Below the pieces are notes generated by a model, which saw only the letters and a program-made list of their open reading frames with translations, had not been told where the DNA came from and did no database searches. Source: Nitrospinota bacterium (GTDB lineage Bacteria > Nitrospinota > Nitrospinia > JACRGO01). Taken from it: DNA of 5,437 nt. Shown here in pieces: positions 1 to 5,242 of the stretch (position 1 is its first letter; every line of letters starts with the position of its first letter). A program made the position numbers and the translations under genes. The DNA is taken from the NCBI GenBank assembly GCA_016212295.1, contig JACRGO010000061.1, positions 1-5,437 of the forward strand. Direction: 5' to 3'.

Positions 1-138
1 CATAACGGCCTGTAAAATAGCCATGCCTGTAAATGAGCATAAGCATGGAAGGTGAAATTTTTACAATTTTTTTATCCAATAAAAAAGAATACCTTGTTGA
101 TTTAAAAGACTTTTTCTTATTTATGCGTAGGCTCTATA
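1..138. other. AT-rich leader upstream of the truncated kinase
   Basis: No gene is supported here. The stretch is much richer in A and T than the kinase that follows. It holds a 9-bp direct repeat, GCCTGTAAA, at 8-16 and 25-33, and a 6-bp inverted repeat, CCATGC (21-26) with GCATGG (43-48). A short open frame, ATG at 33 to TGA at 165-167, runs out of it and into the kinase gene in another frame; its product resembles nothing I recognise. A poor sigma-70-like pair can be drawn (TTGATT at 97-102 with weak -10 candidates), but I would not call it a promoter. The kinase reading frame is open leftwards only to the TAA at 103-105, so the missing receiver half is not encoded here. Confidence 0.6.
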
Positions 139-1701
139 GTGCTGGAAGGGAAAATGGACGGCATTGAAGCCGCCGGCCAAATCCATTCCCGTTTCGGCAT
201 CCCCATTATCTTCCAGACCGCCTACTCGGACGAAAAAATACTGGAACGGGCCAAGGAAATAGAACCCTTTGGATATTTGATCAAGCCCGTGCAGGAAAGG
301 GAATTGTACGCCGCAATCAAGATGGCCCTTTACAAGCGCGAGGTGGACGAGAAGCTCAGGGAAAACCAGAAGAAGCTGAGGCATGCCCTTAATGAAGCGC
401 TCAGGAGGAGGGCGGAGGTTGCCGCGCTTTTGGAAAGTTCGCGGGCCGTGCTGGAATACCGCAAGTTCGAGGACGCGGCGAAGGCCATCTTTGATTCCTG
501 CAAGAAGGTTACAGGGGCCGCAGCCGGTTACATTGCCTTGTTGACCCAGGACGGGTCGGAGACCGACGTCGTTTTTCTGGACTCCGGCGGGCGGCCTTGC
601 GACGTGGATCCCAATCTTCCAATGCCTATCCGGGGCCTTCGCGCGGAAGCATACCATACTGGAAAGGTTGTGTACGACAATGATTTTTCCGGGAGCCAAT
701 GGGCGTCCTTCATGCCGGAAAGGCACGTTGCCCTGGACAATGTCCTCTTTGCTCCCCTTATTGTTGAAGGAAAGGTGCTGGGCCTCATGGGCCTGGCCAA
801 TAAACCCAAGGGGTTCACGGAGAACGACTCCGTAATGGCCGCCGCCTTCGCGGAACACGCGGCCATTGCTCTGCAAAACAGCCGCGCCCTAATGGACTTG
901 CACAAAAAACATGAGGAATTGGAAAAAACTTTCGAAAAATTAAAAAAGGCCCAGTCGCTCTTAATCAGACAGGAAAAACTCGCTTCCCTGGGGACCCTTT
1001 CCGCTGGCGTGGCCCATGAAATCAAAAATCCCTTGAACATAATTTCCACTTCCGTCCAGTTGCTGCAGATGGAGGAAAATCTGTCCGAGGAAGCCAAGGA
1101 AGCCTATGGAACCATAATCCAGCAAGTCAACAGGGCCGCCAAAATCACTGAAAATTTAAGGGATTTCGCGCGGGAGCGAAAGCCGGAAATCAAGGAGATC
1201 GAACTTCACGCCTTTTTGGAGAAGACCCTTGCCCTGGTGGAATACGAAATGAAGGCGGAGAACCTGCAAATCGAAAAGAAATTCCACAAGGATCCAATTT
1301 ATATAAACGGGGACGAGGACCAATTGGCCCAGGTGTTTTTGAATATGATCGGCAACGCCAGGGACAGCATGAATGAAAAGCAGAAGTGCCATTCCTATGA
1401 AGACCTCCAGAAAATGGGATGGTCGGGGCGGTTGACGGTGCAAACCGGGGTTTCCGGTTCCCAGGCCTTTGTCCTGTTCCAGGACACTGGATCAGGCATG
1501 ACGGAGGAAGTGAAAGGAAAAATTTTCGATCCCTTTTTCACCACGAAAGGGGAGGGGAAAGGGACCGGGCTTGGGTTGTCCATTGCCTACGGCATCATTG
1601 AGGCCCACGGCGGGACTATCAAGTTTGAAAGCAAGGAAGGCAAGGGAACCAAGTTTGTCATTTTCCTTCCTTTAAACCGGCCAGAGGCCGGAACCAAATA
1701 G
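139..1701 (+). CDS. Soluble GAF-domain sensor histidine kinase with a half receiver domain at its N-terminus
   Basis: A cytoplasmic two-component kinase expected to autophosphorylate on His and pass phosphate to a receiver such as those encoded downstream. Order of parts in the 520 residues: C-terminal half of a receiver (1-66, with the switch Thr at 27 and conserved Lys49-Pro50); coiled coil (about 68-98); GAF domain (about 98-248, with the MPERH...LDNVLFAPL stretch common in kinase-linked GAF domains); second coiled coil (250-280); HisKA with phospho-accepting His293 in AHEIKNP; HATPase with N-box Asn402/Asn406, G1 box DTGSGM (449-454), F box DPFF (464-467) and G2 box GTGLGLS (475-481). No membrane segment or signal peptide is visible. 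The receiver lacks its acidic pair and phospho-Asp: the frame begins just after that position. The start is uncertain. GTG 139 has only a weak AGG (129-131) upstream, while ATG 154 has GGAAGGG (144-150) but tight spacing. The kinase core looks intact, so it may work without a functional receiver. It could instead be a 5'-truncated remnant. Confidence 0.9.
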   Translation: MLEGKMDGIEAAGQIHSRFGIPIIFQTAYSDEKILERAKEIEPFGYLIKPVQERELYAAIKMALYKREVDEKLRENQKKLRHALNEALRRRAEVAALLESSRAVLEYRKFEDAAKAIFDSCKKVTGAAAGYIALLTQDGSETDVVFLDSGGRPCDVDPNLPMPIRGLRAEAYHTGKVVYDNDFSGSQWASFMPERHVALDNVLFAPLIVEGKVLGLMGLANKPKGFTENDSVMAAAFAEHAAIALQNSRALMDLHKKHEELEKTFEKLKKAQSLLIRQEKLASLGTLSAGVAHEIKNPLNIISTSVQLLQMEENLSEEAKEAYGTIIQQVNRAAKITENLRDFARERKPEIKEIELHAFLEKTLALVEYEMKAENLQIEKKFHKDPIYINGDEDQLAQVFLNMIGNARDSMNEKQKCHSYEDLQKMGWSGRLTVQTGVSGSQAFVLFQDTGSGMTEEVKGKIFDPFFTTKGEGKGTGLGLSIAYGIIEAHGGTIKFESKEGKGTKFVIFLPLNRPEAGTK

Positions 1702-1747: not shown

Positions 1748-1876
1748 TTAACTCCAGCCTTCAGGCTGGAGTTAACGAACAAACCCAGTGGGCTTTAGCC
1801 CTGAATATATCCTTGAAAGTCATGGCTAAAGCCCGACACTTATTTCCATTTTCTCCGCCATGAATGGCGGAGTTAT
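1748..1876. repeat. REPIN/BIME-like element: two inverted REP-type hairpins flanking a central inverted repeat
   Basis: Three palindromes sit in a row. Hairpin 1 (1748-1775) has a perfect 12-bp stem, TTAACTCCAGCC with its complement, and a TTCA loop. The central inverted repeat has 11-bp arms, GGGCTTTAGCC (1790-1800) and GGCTAAAGCCC (1824-1834), with a 23-nt loop; AGTG and CACT can pair just outside it. Hairpin 3 (1853-1872) has an 8-bp stem, CTCCGCCA with its complement, and a TGAA loop. Read on the opposite strand, hairpin 3 is a diverged copy of hairpin 1: both are 24 nt (1750-1773 and 1851-1874), begin AACTCC, share the TTCA loop and differ mainly by paired changes that keep the stem. Two REP-like hairpins in opposite orientation are the defining layout of REPINs, which are mobilised in trans by RAYT (Y1 HUH) transposases. 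No such gene is in the window. There is no U-run, so it is not a classical terminator. Confidence 0.75.
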
Positions 1877-3212: not shown

Positions 3213-3476
3213 TCAATAAACTTCATCGTGAGAGCCAATATCGAGGAGGTGGACAATGTCGTCGTATAGCTTGAATACGACTCTCAAATCTTGTGTCAGG
3301 GAGCAGGCGTATTTGCCTTTCAGGCGGCCTTTAAGAGGATGGGTGTGCAAAGTCGGATCAAAGGGATTGATAGAGAGTTTTGAAAGTAGAGTCTCGTATG
3401 TCTTTTGGAGCAAGGGGTTCCTTTTGAGTAATTTTTTTGAACGTTTACTAAAACTCCTTTCAAGTTCAAGCCTCAT
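3213..3476 (-). CDS. Type II toxin of the RelE/YafQ superfamily (probable mRNA interferase)
   Basis: An 87-residue basic protein. Toxins of this group cleave mRNA in the ribosomal A site and are held inactive by the partner antitoxin. Visible family features are a basic N-terminal helix (KRSKKLLKRNP, 11-21), NPFDPTLHTHPLKGRLKGKYACSL (37-60, given here by its key residues His44, His46, Lys49 and Lys53), DLRVVFKL (63-70) and the characteristic ending LLDIGSHDEVY (77-87) with His83. Length and motif order match an intact member. The frame is open further upstream, but the start at the ATG at 3476-3474 gives the usual MRLEL N-terminus and overlaps the antitoxin end by 11 nt. With no clear ribosome site, translation is probably coupled to the antitoxin. 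The family is clear; cleavage activity is inferred from it. Confidence 0.88.
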   Translation of the reverse strand: MRLELERSFSKRSKKLLKRNPLLQKTYETLLSKLSINPFDPTLHTHPLKGRLKGKYACSLTQDLRVVFKLYDDIVHLLDIGSHDEVY

Positions 3477-3702
3477 CATCGTCATCAGGGGCATTAAAGA
3501 TAGCCTGCATCGCCTCTTCAACGGAATTGCAGATTACAGAGTCATTCTCTTGTTCCGCCTTCAGCACGCGCTCCACGAATGCCTTGTGCTTTTTCTCTTT
3601 TTCAAGAAAATAGCCCACAATATCCAGAATCTCCTGGAGCCGTTTTTCTGGAAGTTGGGGGAGCAGATTGTCTATATTGGCGATAGCCATGCTCTTGGTC
3701 AT
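3466..3702 (-). CDS. Putative antitoxin paired with the RelE/YafQ-type toxin
   Basis: A 78-residue protein encoded immediately upstream of the toxin in the usual antitoxin-first order. The N-terminal half (about 8-37) is helical and contains LLPQLPEKRLQEILDIVGYF, a pattern of small antitoxin-like proteins. I see no ribbon-helix-helix or helix-turn-helix that I can name, so whether it binds its own promoter is open. The C-terminal part (about 57-78), SVEEAMQAIF followed by the acidic tail DDDDE, is the kind of flexible acidic segment that wraps a basic RelE-type toxin. The start may be ATG 3702, which would make the message nearly leaderless from the promoter at 3709-3738, or ATG 3690 (residue 5), which has a weak AAGAG before it. 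Identification rests mainly on its position next to a clear toxin. Confidence 0.75.
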   Translation of the reverse strand: MTKSMAIANIDNLLPQLPEKRLQEILDIVGYFLEKEKKHKAFVERVLKAEQENDSVICNSVEEAMQAIFNAPDDDDEA

Positions 3703-3739: not shown

Positions 3740-3833
3740 GAACTAAAGCGCCTAAAGTTGTGGTAGGTTTCTTTTTATAATGAAAAAATAGCTTCCACAA
3801 CTTTAGTCACTTTAAATTTTAGTTCACTTTAAA
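3740..3833. repeat. Nested palindrome made of CTAAAG/CTTTAG hexamers in the divergent promoter region
   Basis: The inner arms are a perfect 12-bp inverted repeat: CTAAAGTTGTGG (3752-3763) and CCACAACTTTAG (3795-3806). The outer arms are a perfect 8-bp inverted repeat: GAACTAAA (3740-3747) and TTTAGTTC (3818-3825). The 31-nt centre can pair further (TTTTT at 3772-3776 with AAAAA within 3783-3788). The hexamer CTAAAG occurs at 3743 and 3752. Its complement or a one-base variant occurs at 3801, 3810, 3817 and 3827, so the copies are about one helical turn apart. TCACTTTAAA is also directly repeated (3807-3816 and 3824-3833). It could be an operator serving the outward-facing promoters or a small mobile palindrome. 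The sequence alone does not decide. Confidence 0.65.
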
Positions 3834-3855: not shown

Positions 3856-5094
3856 ATGCAAACAAATCATGTCCTCGTGGTGGATGACGAAGTCAAGGTC
3901 TGCGAGATCGTAGGACGTTTTCTCCAGGCCAAGGGCTTCGTGGTGTCCCGGGCCCATAACGGACTGGAGGCGTTGGAGGCCTGCGCCTCCCAAAAGCCGG
4001 ACGTAGTCGTCATGGATATCCGGATGCCGAGGATGGACGGCGTGGAATGCCTGAAAAGAATCAAGGAGACGGCCCCGGATACTGAAGTCATCATGTCCAC
4101 CGCAGTGGAGGAATTGAACACCGGGATCTCCTGCATGAAAATGGGGGCCTTTGGGTATCTCAATAAACCGATAAACCTGGAAAATTTATTCATTGAGATT
4201 AACCGCTCCCTGGAACACCGGAGGCTGGTCCTTGAAAACCGGGATTATCAAATCAACCTGGAAAAAAAGGTGGAGGAGCGGACCCGTGAGGTCCTCCAAT
4301 TGAATGAAAAACTCAAGGAGAGTCTGCTGAATTCGGTGAGGATCACCTTGGGCATACTGGAGACCACCGACGTATTTTTCGCCGGGCATGCGAAAAGGGT
4401 CTCCATCTGGGCCGTGGCCGTCGCCCACTACATGGGCCTGGGCGCGCAAGAGGTCTTTGACATTGAATTGGCCGCGCTGCTGCACGAGATCGGCCAGATA
4501 GCCATCCCGGAGGAGATCAGGAACGCCTCCTTCAAGGAATTGTCCATCAGGGAAATCAACATGGTCAAGGAGTATCCGGCGCTCACGCAACGGATACTGT
4601 CCCCCTCGGAGGAGCTCCGAAGGGCCGGGGTTTTGGTCCGCCATCATCTGGAGCATCTTGACGGGACCGGTTTCCCTGACGGCCTTAAGGGAGACAGCAT
4701 CCCCCTGGGGTCGAGGATTATAGGCGTGGTTAATGCCTATGACGAATTGGAAAGCCGCAGGCGGTTCACTTCGGAAAAATTTCCTTCGGATAAAACCAAG
4801 GATGACTTCGTTTTTTCCAATCTGAGAAAACACGCGGGGAGGCATTATCAACCGGAGATCATCGACAAGCTGGAAGAGGCCCTGGCCGGCTACCATAAGC
4901 TCGCGAAGACGAGGGCTTTATGCACGGTAAATGAATTGAAGGCCGGCATGGCCCTGGCCTCGGATATTCATCTGCGCGGGGGGAAGCTGTTGATTAAAAA
5001 AGGGGCCATTCTGAGCGACGTACACGTGGCGAAACTCAACGCCTTATATAAAATGTATCTACTTGAGGGCGATATTTACATTTGGAAGTCATAG
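3856..5094 (+). CDS. Response regulator: receiver plus degenerate HD-GYP-like output domain (paralog of the regulator at 1951-3198)
   Basis: A 412-residue cytoplasmic regulator with the same architecture as the gene at 1951-3198. The receiver (about 4-120) is complete: Asp10/Asp11, phospho-Asp54 in VVMD, Thr82 and Lys104-Pro105. A signalling helix follows (about 122-160), then an HD-GYP-like domain (about 160-345) and the shared C-terminal module (about 358-400; LKAGMAL, then G-K-L-L-I-K-K-G). In the HD-GYP-like part, Glu169 and GHAKRV (His178) are present, but the HD dyad reads HEIGQ (His210, Glu211, Gln214 for Lys). The 'HP' His is Tyr240, the HHE motif reads H264-L-E266 followed by DGTGFP, and the VAD Asp is Asn293. 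Loss of cyclic di-GMP hydrolysis is likely, although Glu211 could still ligate a metal. It is divergent from the toxin-antitoxin pair. The start has no ribosome site and lies directly under a TATAAT. The stop codon TAG uses the first two bases of the palindromic element at 5093-5242. Confidence 0.9.
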   Translation: MQTNHVLVVDDEVKVCEIVGRFLQAKGFVVSRAHNGLEALEACASQKPDVVVMDIRMPRMDGVECLKRIKETAPDTEVIMSTAVEELNTGISCMKMGAFGYLNKPINLENLFIEINRSLEHRRLVLENRDYQINLEKKVEERTREVLQLNEKLKESLLNSVRITLGILETTDVFFAGHAKRVSIWAVAVAHYMGLGAQEVFDIELAALLHEIGQIAIPEEIRNASFKELSIREINMVKEYPALTQRILSPSEELRRAGVLVRHHLEHLDGTGFPDGLKGDSIPLGSRIIGVVNAYDELESRRRFTSEKFPSDKTKDDFVFSNLRKHAGRHYQPEIIDKLEEALAGYHKLAKTRALCTVNELKAGMALASDIHLRGGKLLIKKGAILSDVHVAKLNALYKMYLLEGDIYIWKS

Positions 5095-5242
5095 CGCGGC
5101 GTGGCCGCGACCAAAATAAATTTCGGCGTATTCAAACGTTTGATGATATTATTACGTTCAGAAATTTACGTTTTCCGCTTGAAATAAAATCAGCGTTGTA
5201 TGCTTCAAGAGAAATTTATTTTGGTTGCGGCCATGCCGCGCT
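5093..5242. repeat. 150-bp palindromic, MITE-like element abutting the regulator stop codon
   Basis: Two 32-bp terminal arms (5093-5124 and 5211-5242) are complementary at 30 of 32 positions. The two exceptions (5101 with 5234 and 5109 with 5226) are G opposite T, so an RNA copied from the plus strand would pair along the whole arm through G-U wobbles. Pairing continues imperfectly inward; for example, AACG...TGAT at 5135-5144 faces ATCAGCGTT at 5189-5197. Each end also folds by itself: CGCGGC/GCCGCG at 5095-5109 with a 3-nt loop, and GCGGC/GCCGC at 5227-5239. No protein-coding frame of note lies within, and I see no obvious target-site duplication. The shape fits a non-autonomous mobile element, or a long 3' RNA hairpin that could end or stabilise the regulator mRNA. 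Confidence 0.7.

Follow-up and report, generated by a model that had tools for sequence, protein, structure and literature searches.

The hairpins at the ends of IS608-type transposons lie on the same strand and are accompanied by guide sequences. The 3' ends of RAYT genes have been found captured within BIMEs (Nunvar 2010, PMC2817692), and an origin of REPINs from an IS200-like ancestor has been proposed (Bertels and Rainey 2011, PMC3116915). Subclass 1.2 of the TnpA_Y1 transposases was reported without REPs and generally without IS200-type terminal structures (Quentin et al. 2018, PMC6006769). Here we describe a dispersed hairpin element. Its sequence and that of its relatives indicate that it is probably a non-autonomous miniature, formed when an IS200-like single-strand transposon bounded by inverted hairpins lost tnpA and its two ends were fused.

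The window, i.e. the whole stretch of DNA that was analysed (5,437 nucleotides), is the entire contig C5 of a host genome of 3.74 Mb in 237 contigs (90.5% complete). Two genes on the same strand enclose the element: a GAF/histidine-kinase gene, which stops at 1701, and a response-regulator/HD gene, which probably starts at 1951. Its features are:

1748-1878, + strand: core miniature element TTAACTCC...GGAGTTATTA, 131 bp; copies C47 and C70b stop at GGAGTTATTA and copy C125 starts at TTAACTCC
1748-1775, + strand: hairpin 1, left end, TTAACTCCAGCCT/AGGCTGGAGTTAA with loop TTCA; 13-bp perfect arms, conserved in the copies
1790-1804, + strand: palindrome GGGCTTTAGCCCTGA from the start-codon side of the putative parent's left end; it lies just ahead of the tnpA start in L137, L135, L114, L159 and L169
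1806-1829, + strand: probable tnpA remnant, TAT ATC CTT GAA AGT CAT GGC TAA (Y-I-L-E-S-H-G-stop)
1824-1834, + strand: palindrome GGCTAAAGCCC from the stop-codon side of the right end; pairs with 1790-1800
1851-1874, + strand: hairpin 3, right end, inverted, TTCTCCGCCA-TGAA-TGGCGGAGTT; stem invariant in 10 copies
1879-1954, + strand: right outer extension, common to about nine copies
1901-1928, no strand assigned: nested GC-rich palindrome TGCCTGCGCATGCCCGCGCGCAGACAGG, a separate dispersed repeat (query part 75-114 alone matches about ten places)

Both hairpins that a sequence-only reading had placed at 1750-1773 and 1851-1874 are present, the inner part of hairpin 1 (1750-1773) being AACTCCAGCC-TTCA-GGCTGGAGTT. 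The same reading had described a separate 11-bp inverted repeat; its arms exist, with GGGCTTTAGCC at 1790-1800 pairing with GGCTAAAGCCC at 1824-1834, but they are part of the two ends and not a separate unit. A hairpin pattern covering hairpins 1 and 3 had 3 matches in the window versus 0.01 expected, and the ssDNA fold of the element stretch reached -35.3 kcal/mol versus -12.5 in shuffles (z -8.5). The hairpin feet are TTATTAACTCC and GGAGTTATTA. In the window copy the left outer part GTAATAGTTCACCCCTATGGACAG has been lost, and the degenerate end of the right outer extension (1931-1954), which is GATTAGACAGGGCTGAACTATTAC in other copies, overlaps the start codon of the next gene. The element in the window is now a spacer with strong hairpins between the kinase and regulator genes, and a passive effect on the transcript is possible. 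Elsewhere in the window, a dispersed 35-bp inverted repeat (CTAAAGCGCCTAAAGTTGTGG...) occupies 3744-3814 and also occurs in the same-genus genome G001 at ~80% identity; a 32-bp inverted repeat, AGCGCGGCGTGGCCGCGACCAAAATAAATTTC, is found at 5093-5124 and 5211-5242, and similar pieces flank other copies (L053, L067). Two small overlapping genes on the - strand (3213-3521 and 3466-3702) resemble a putative RelE-type toxin and its antitoxin.

With the element as query, about 20 sites matched in the host genome, a copy count obtained by search only. In ten copies both hairpins lie together in a single short unit, and the remainder are split by inserted repeats or comprise one half only. The repeated inverted hairpin pairs anticipated by the sequence-only reading are thus found, with both hairpins at ten sites at least, and the element is neither single-copy nor never paired. 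Most copies are intergenic: 11 of the 18 checked cores touch no ORF of at least 100 aa, and the other seven mainly overlap short ORFs or 5' extensions. Short cores of 131-137 bp (window, C226, C70) have a short centre, while long cores of 156-173 bp have an additional GC-rich palindrome there. The copies are ~71-91% alike, which makes recent movement unlikely, and in every complete copy hairpins 1 and 3 each keep their own sequence. No target rule for insertion could be derived from the copies, and no intergenic region corresponding to an empty site was found in the only same-genus genome. Contig C226 carries a paralogue of the kinase locus, and the element sits there at the equivalent place; the window and C226 therefore do not count as two independent insertions. 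The 3' end of the kinase gene (window 1-1701; L002, C226:1-180) is nearly identical in these two contigs, and since C226 starts inside this duplicated gene the assembly must have broken there. C226 also has an extra partial left end ahead of the element.

Several copies reach GTAATAGTTCA(C/G)CCC on both outer sides, which creates a 15-bp outer inverted repeat. Because many host copies run out to this repeat, which is absent from intact elements elsewhere, the segment that moves may extend beyond the core. The element could also be a classical TIR-type MITE, in which a DDE transposase recognises the outer GTAATAGTTCA(C/G)CCC and the hairpin core is cargo only. All exact TIR matches in the genome (7/7) fall within the element family, and at C138 an unrelated interior has the same ends in inverted order. 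We nevertheless regard this explanation as unlikely: inspection by eye of the sequence around complete copies showed no target duplication, a full-length IS with these ends was not found, C125, C47 and C70b are without an outer part, and related elements elsewhere are without the outer repeat. Unrelated interiors of the CGCAGAGACGCAAAG type with the outer-repeat terminal TAATAGTTCA were observed in L044 (C138:36000-36159), L049 (C216:43068) and L047 (C190:199), and this common terminal reflects either a shared transposase or a shared target.

The reading as a miniature of an IS200-like transposon draws on relatives in other genomes. A one-genome-per-species scan for AACTCCRSCMTTCAKGSYGGAG gave 69 loci versus ~2 estimated by chance, most of them in Planctomycetota, Bacteroidota, Ignavibacteria-type and KSB1 genomes, several of which have many copies. 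At many loci GGCTTTAGCC follows ~20-25 nt past the hairpin, and several adjoin a 143-144-aa Y1 transposase gene; these hairpin-adjacent genes were missed with the host genome's own two Y1 proteins as queries. Intact elements in Bacteroidota consist of the AACTCC hairpin, GGGCTTTAGCCCTGA, tnpA, GTCATGGCTAAAGCC holding the tnpA stop codon, and then the inverted hairpin. Specifically, the order in L137 is hairpin, GGGCTTTAGCCCTGA, start codon, tnpA, stop codon in CATGGCTAAAGCC, spacer and inverted hairpin, and the same plan was found in L135, L092, L114, L159, L162 and L169. The window has both ends as in the intact elements, with just 1805-1823 between them. When the window ends were compared with tnpA flanks, L137 scored 30 (left) and 32 (right) and L169 scored 36 and 34, where null maxima were 14-15. 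For most tnpA genes the scores were 23-36 (null maxima 12-15); lower scores were obtained for the left ends of L092, L155 and L162 and the right end of L159, and the right-end score of L182 was taken at the wrong gene end.

The deletion path can be followed in part. The TnpA proteins of L169, L137 and L114 end in YNLGSHG, YNLQRHG and YAFESHG, respectively, each directly before the stop codon, and window positions 1806-1829 give YILESHG-stop in the tnpA frame. That this remnant spans only eight codons and overlaps a conserved palindrome counts against the miniature reading. In L169, from a Planctomycetes genome, the first six codons of tnpA are joined to residues ~100-143 (the last 44) between both ends, and this locus appears to be a part-deleted intermediate between the full and the miniature element. 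The miniature form also occurs in several Planctomycetota, again with the polarity CCTGA...TCATGG. In the members read by eye, left-end loops are TTYA and right-end loops TRAA, which makes the ends inverted; terminal inverted repeats are present in the intact elements, the Planctomycetota miniatures and the host-genome copies alike. In five Planctomycetota copies (L089, L104, L129, L139, L144) a GTAGAGACAGGTTTGAAACCTGTCTCTAC palindrome, a nested repeat, replaces part of the right arm at GGCTAAAG. In Helicobacter (L113, L153), AACTCCGCCCTTCAGGGCGGAG lies ~40 nt downstream of an IS200/IS605-type transposase gene, and a similar hairpin may therefore occur at ordinary IS605 right ends. No description of the element hairpin was found in the literature searched, which covered few subscription journals; the single REP paper containing GGCTTTAGCC concerns a Haemophilus REP, GTAGGGTGGGCTTtAGCCCACC. 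Such hairpin ends may already be catalogued in ISfinder.

The enzyme encoded between these ends is of the IS200/IS605 type. Two TnpAs scored against NCBIfam profiles reached 68.7-69.8 bits for IS200/IS605 (cut-off 55) versus 22-31 bits for the REP-associated transposase (cut-off 80). The TnpA profile can be aligned to the transposase of ISHp608, with the HUH and Tyr residues in register, and the Tyr motif, YI-NQEEHH, is the Y---Q--HH of TnpA_Y1 subclass 1.2. The same ends thus surround a tnpA with both HUH and Y---Q--HH, as is expected of a subclass 1.2-type derivative. In a tree built without reference subclass 1.2 sequences, the TnpAs formed a close group (support 84/97) and clustered with a wider Y---Q--HH set, apart from IS608 and IS200-type rows (separate clade, 100/99). 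The W-Q motif is found in L159, L160, L162 and most of the distant rows, and W-A in the others. In 11 of 16 genes of the wider Y---Q--HH group, the upstream and downstream flanks matched in inverted orientation better than the 95th percentile of cross-locus controls. The 11 include L187, L195 and L196, whose genomes belong to the window's class and had not been selected for hairpins. As an inversion test, this alignment was clear for the distant group, L157, L162 and L135; in the remaining close members a palindrome matches in either orientation, which left the result ambiguous, and the loop sequence was used there instead. It is conceivable, but we hold it to be somewhat short of an even chance, that Y---Q--HH (subclass 1.2) Y1 transposases are generally flanked by inverted hairpins and give rise to inverted miniatures. 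They would then represent a type of single-strand transposon that combines REPIN-like ends with an IS200-like enzyme, a living intermediate toward RAYT/REPIN systems. Distant Y---Q--HH tnpA genes within other inverted palindromes, e.g. CCCCGGAGGGGATA...ATG / TGA...TATCCCCTCCGGGG, were seen in L187, L194 and L196 (same-genus genome G001) and in L188 and L195 (G009).

The host genome itself has two Y1 genes, C179 (329 aa) and the RAYT gene C211, the latter being its single REP_Tyr_transpos gene (97.9 bits, cut-off 80). The sequence-only reading had called the element REPIN-like and had named a RAYT as its enzyme. A true REPIN, i.e. two inverted REPs spread by C211, would fit the presence of this gene, which is preceded at ~350-400 nt by a related hairpin (AACCCCAGCCTTAAGGCTGGGGTT with GGGCTAAAGCCC); the two inverted palindromes and the tie to a Y1 HUH transposase do hold, with tnpA between the same ends in other genomes. 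But C211 is bracketed mainly by GTTACGGATTTGCAATCCGTAACG repeats, a different palindrome family, with just one distant variant of the element hairpin nearby and no element copy adjoining it; the hairpin foot is without the GTAG/GTGG head, and genomes with these ends have an IS200-like TnpA beside them instead. A true REPIN is therefore improbable, and the evidence does not point to RAYT as the enzyme. At L032 (C211), the RAYT gene lies within a GTTACGGATTTGCAATCCGTAACG-type palindrome array (960-2260), and the one AACCCCAGCCTTAAGGCTGGGGTT hairpin upstream has GGGCTAAAGCCC/GGGACTTTAGTCCTGA on both sides.

Searches with E up to 10 found no TnpA of the matching type in the host genome. A matching TnpA was not found in nzgw514, which carries a closely similar element family, or in KSB1 either, despite many copies or hairpins there. 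With no matching tnpA in a 90.5% complete genome, mobility in the host is past or dependent on an unseen enzyme. None of 99 other genomes searched, of which 76 belong to the window's class, contained the element core, and its absence from those 76 suggests that the element was acquired by transfer, the enzyme then being lost or absent from the assembly.

The sequence-only reading had also argued that covariation between the two hairpins implies a selected fold. In an ungapped comparison, three facing pairs indeed differ between hairpins 1 and 3 with pairing kept; an equivalent reading is that one stem base pair was lost and another gained. Within the genome's own family no double changes were seen in 10 copies, and what separates the two hairpins is an old distinction of left from right end that has become fixed in the family, not covariation between copies. 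Between genomes the argument fared better: the three variable stem pairs were paired in 116 of 132 cells (shuffled mean 79, maximum 96) and hairpins were fully paired in 32 of 44 cases versus 9 in shuffles. Rows in this test were distinct genome/sequence pairs, and relatedness still inflates the result. This pairing supports selection for the stem, which the sequence-only reading had deduced on weaker grounds. The strong fold and the position between two same-strand genes might suggest that an attenuator or other structured RNA of the two-component operon is selected at this locus. This is very improbable given the dispersal of the element at ~20 unrelated sites, the lack of an Rfam match for the window and of a terminator-like T run, and the lack of double changes in the family. 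A scan for terminators and promoters found none.

We favour the miniature reading because of the end structure, the copy number, tnpA between the same ends elsewhere, the part-deleted intermediate, the tnpA-like tail and the conserved HUH/Tyr. Against it stand the lack of a matching TnpA in the host genome (though the similar family of nzgw514 likewise has none), the failure to find an empty site or a target rule, the outer repeat and the shortness of the remnant. In the proposed mechanism, a tnpA deletion would have joined the start-codon and stop-codon sides of the parent element. A trans-acting TnpA with the Y---Q--HH motif would bind the hairpins on single-stranded DNA, cut near both ends with its HUH/Tyr site and move the segment that the hairpins enclose, similar to the movement of REPINs proposed for RAYT. 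A Y1 transposase group that was reported to lack terminal structures would thereby acquire defined ends. The steps from full element to miniature would be visible in sequenced genomes, providing a testable model for the origin of REPINs from an IS200-like ancestor and accounting for the recurrence of this repeat in metagenome-assembled genomes across several phyla.

Compared with known systems, the element shares a HUH/Tyr transposase and hairpin ends with IS200/IS605 (IS608, ISDra2); unlike in IS608, its end loops are inverted, as in RAYT loci. It resembles PATE, the palindrome-associated transposable element of Haloquadratum (PMC3119063), as a core-deleted IS200/IS605-type derivative too short for a transposase, with palindromes near its ends and no target duplication seen, but PATE was described without terminal inverted repeats whereas the ends here are inverted. 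With REPINs/BIMEs and RAYTs (PMC2817692; PMC3116915) it has in common inverted palindromes around a Y1 gene, intergenic pairs and transposase-gene 3' ends captured inside the pair; it differs in having no GTAG/GTGG foot, an IS200-type TnpA and ~20 diverged copies instead of hundreds. TnpA_Y1 subclass 1.2 (PMC6006769) shares the Y---Q--HH motif, a length of ~145 aa, a C-terminal extension past the Tyr motif, low copy number and occurrence in Bacteroidota. Unlike that subclass as reported, tnpA is here bracketed by inverted hairpins and has spawned miniatures, it is also found in Planctomycetota and other phyla, and its close group is partly W-A, not W-Q.
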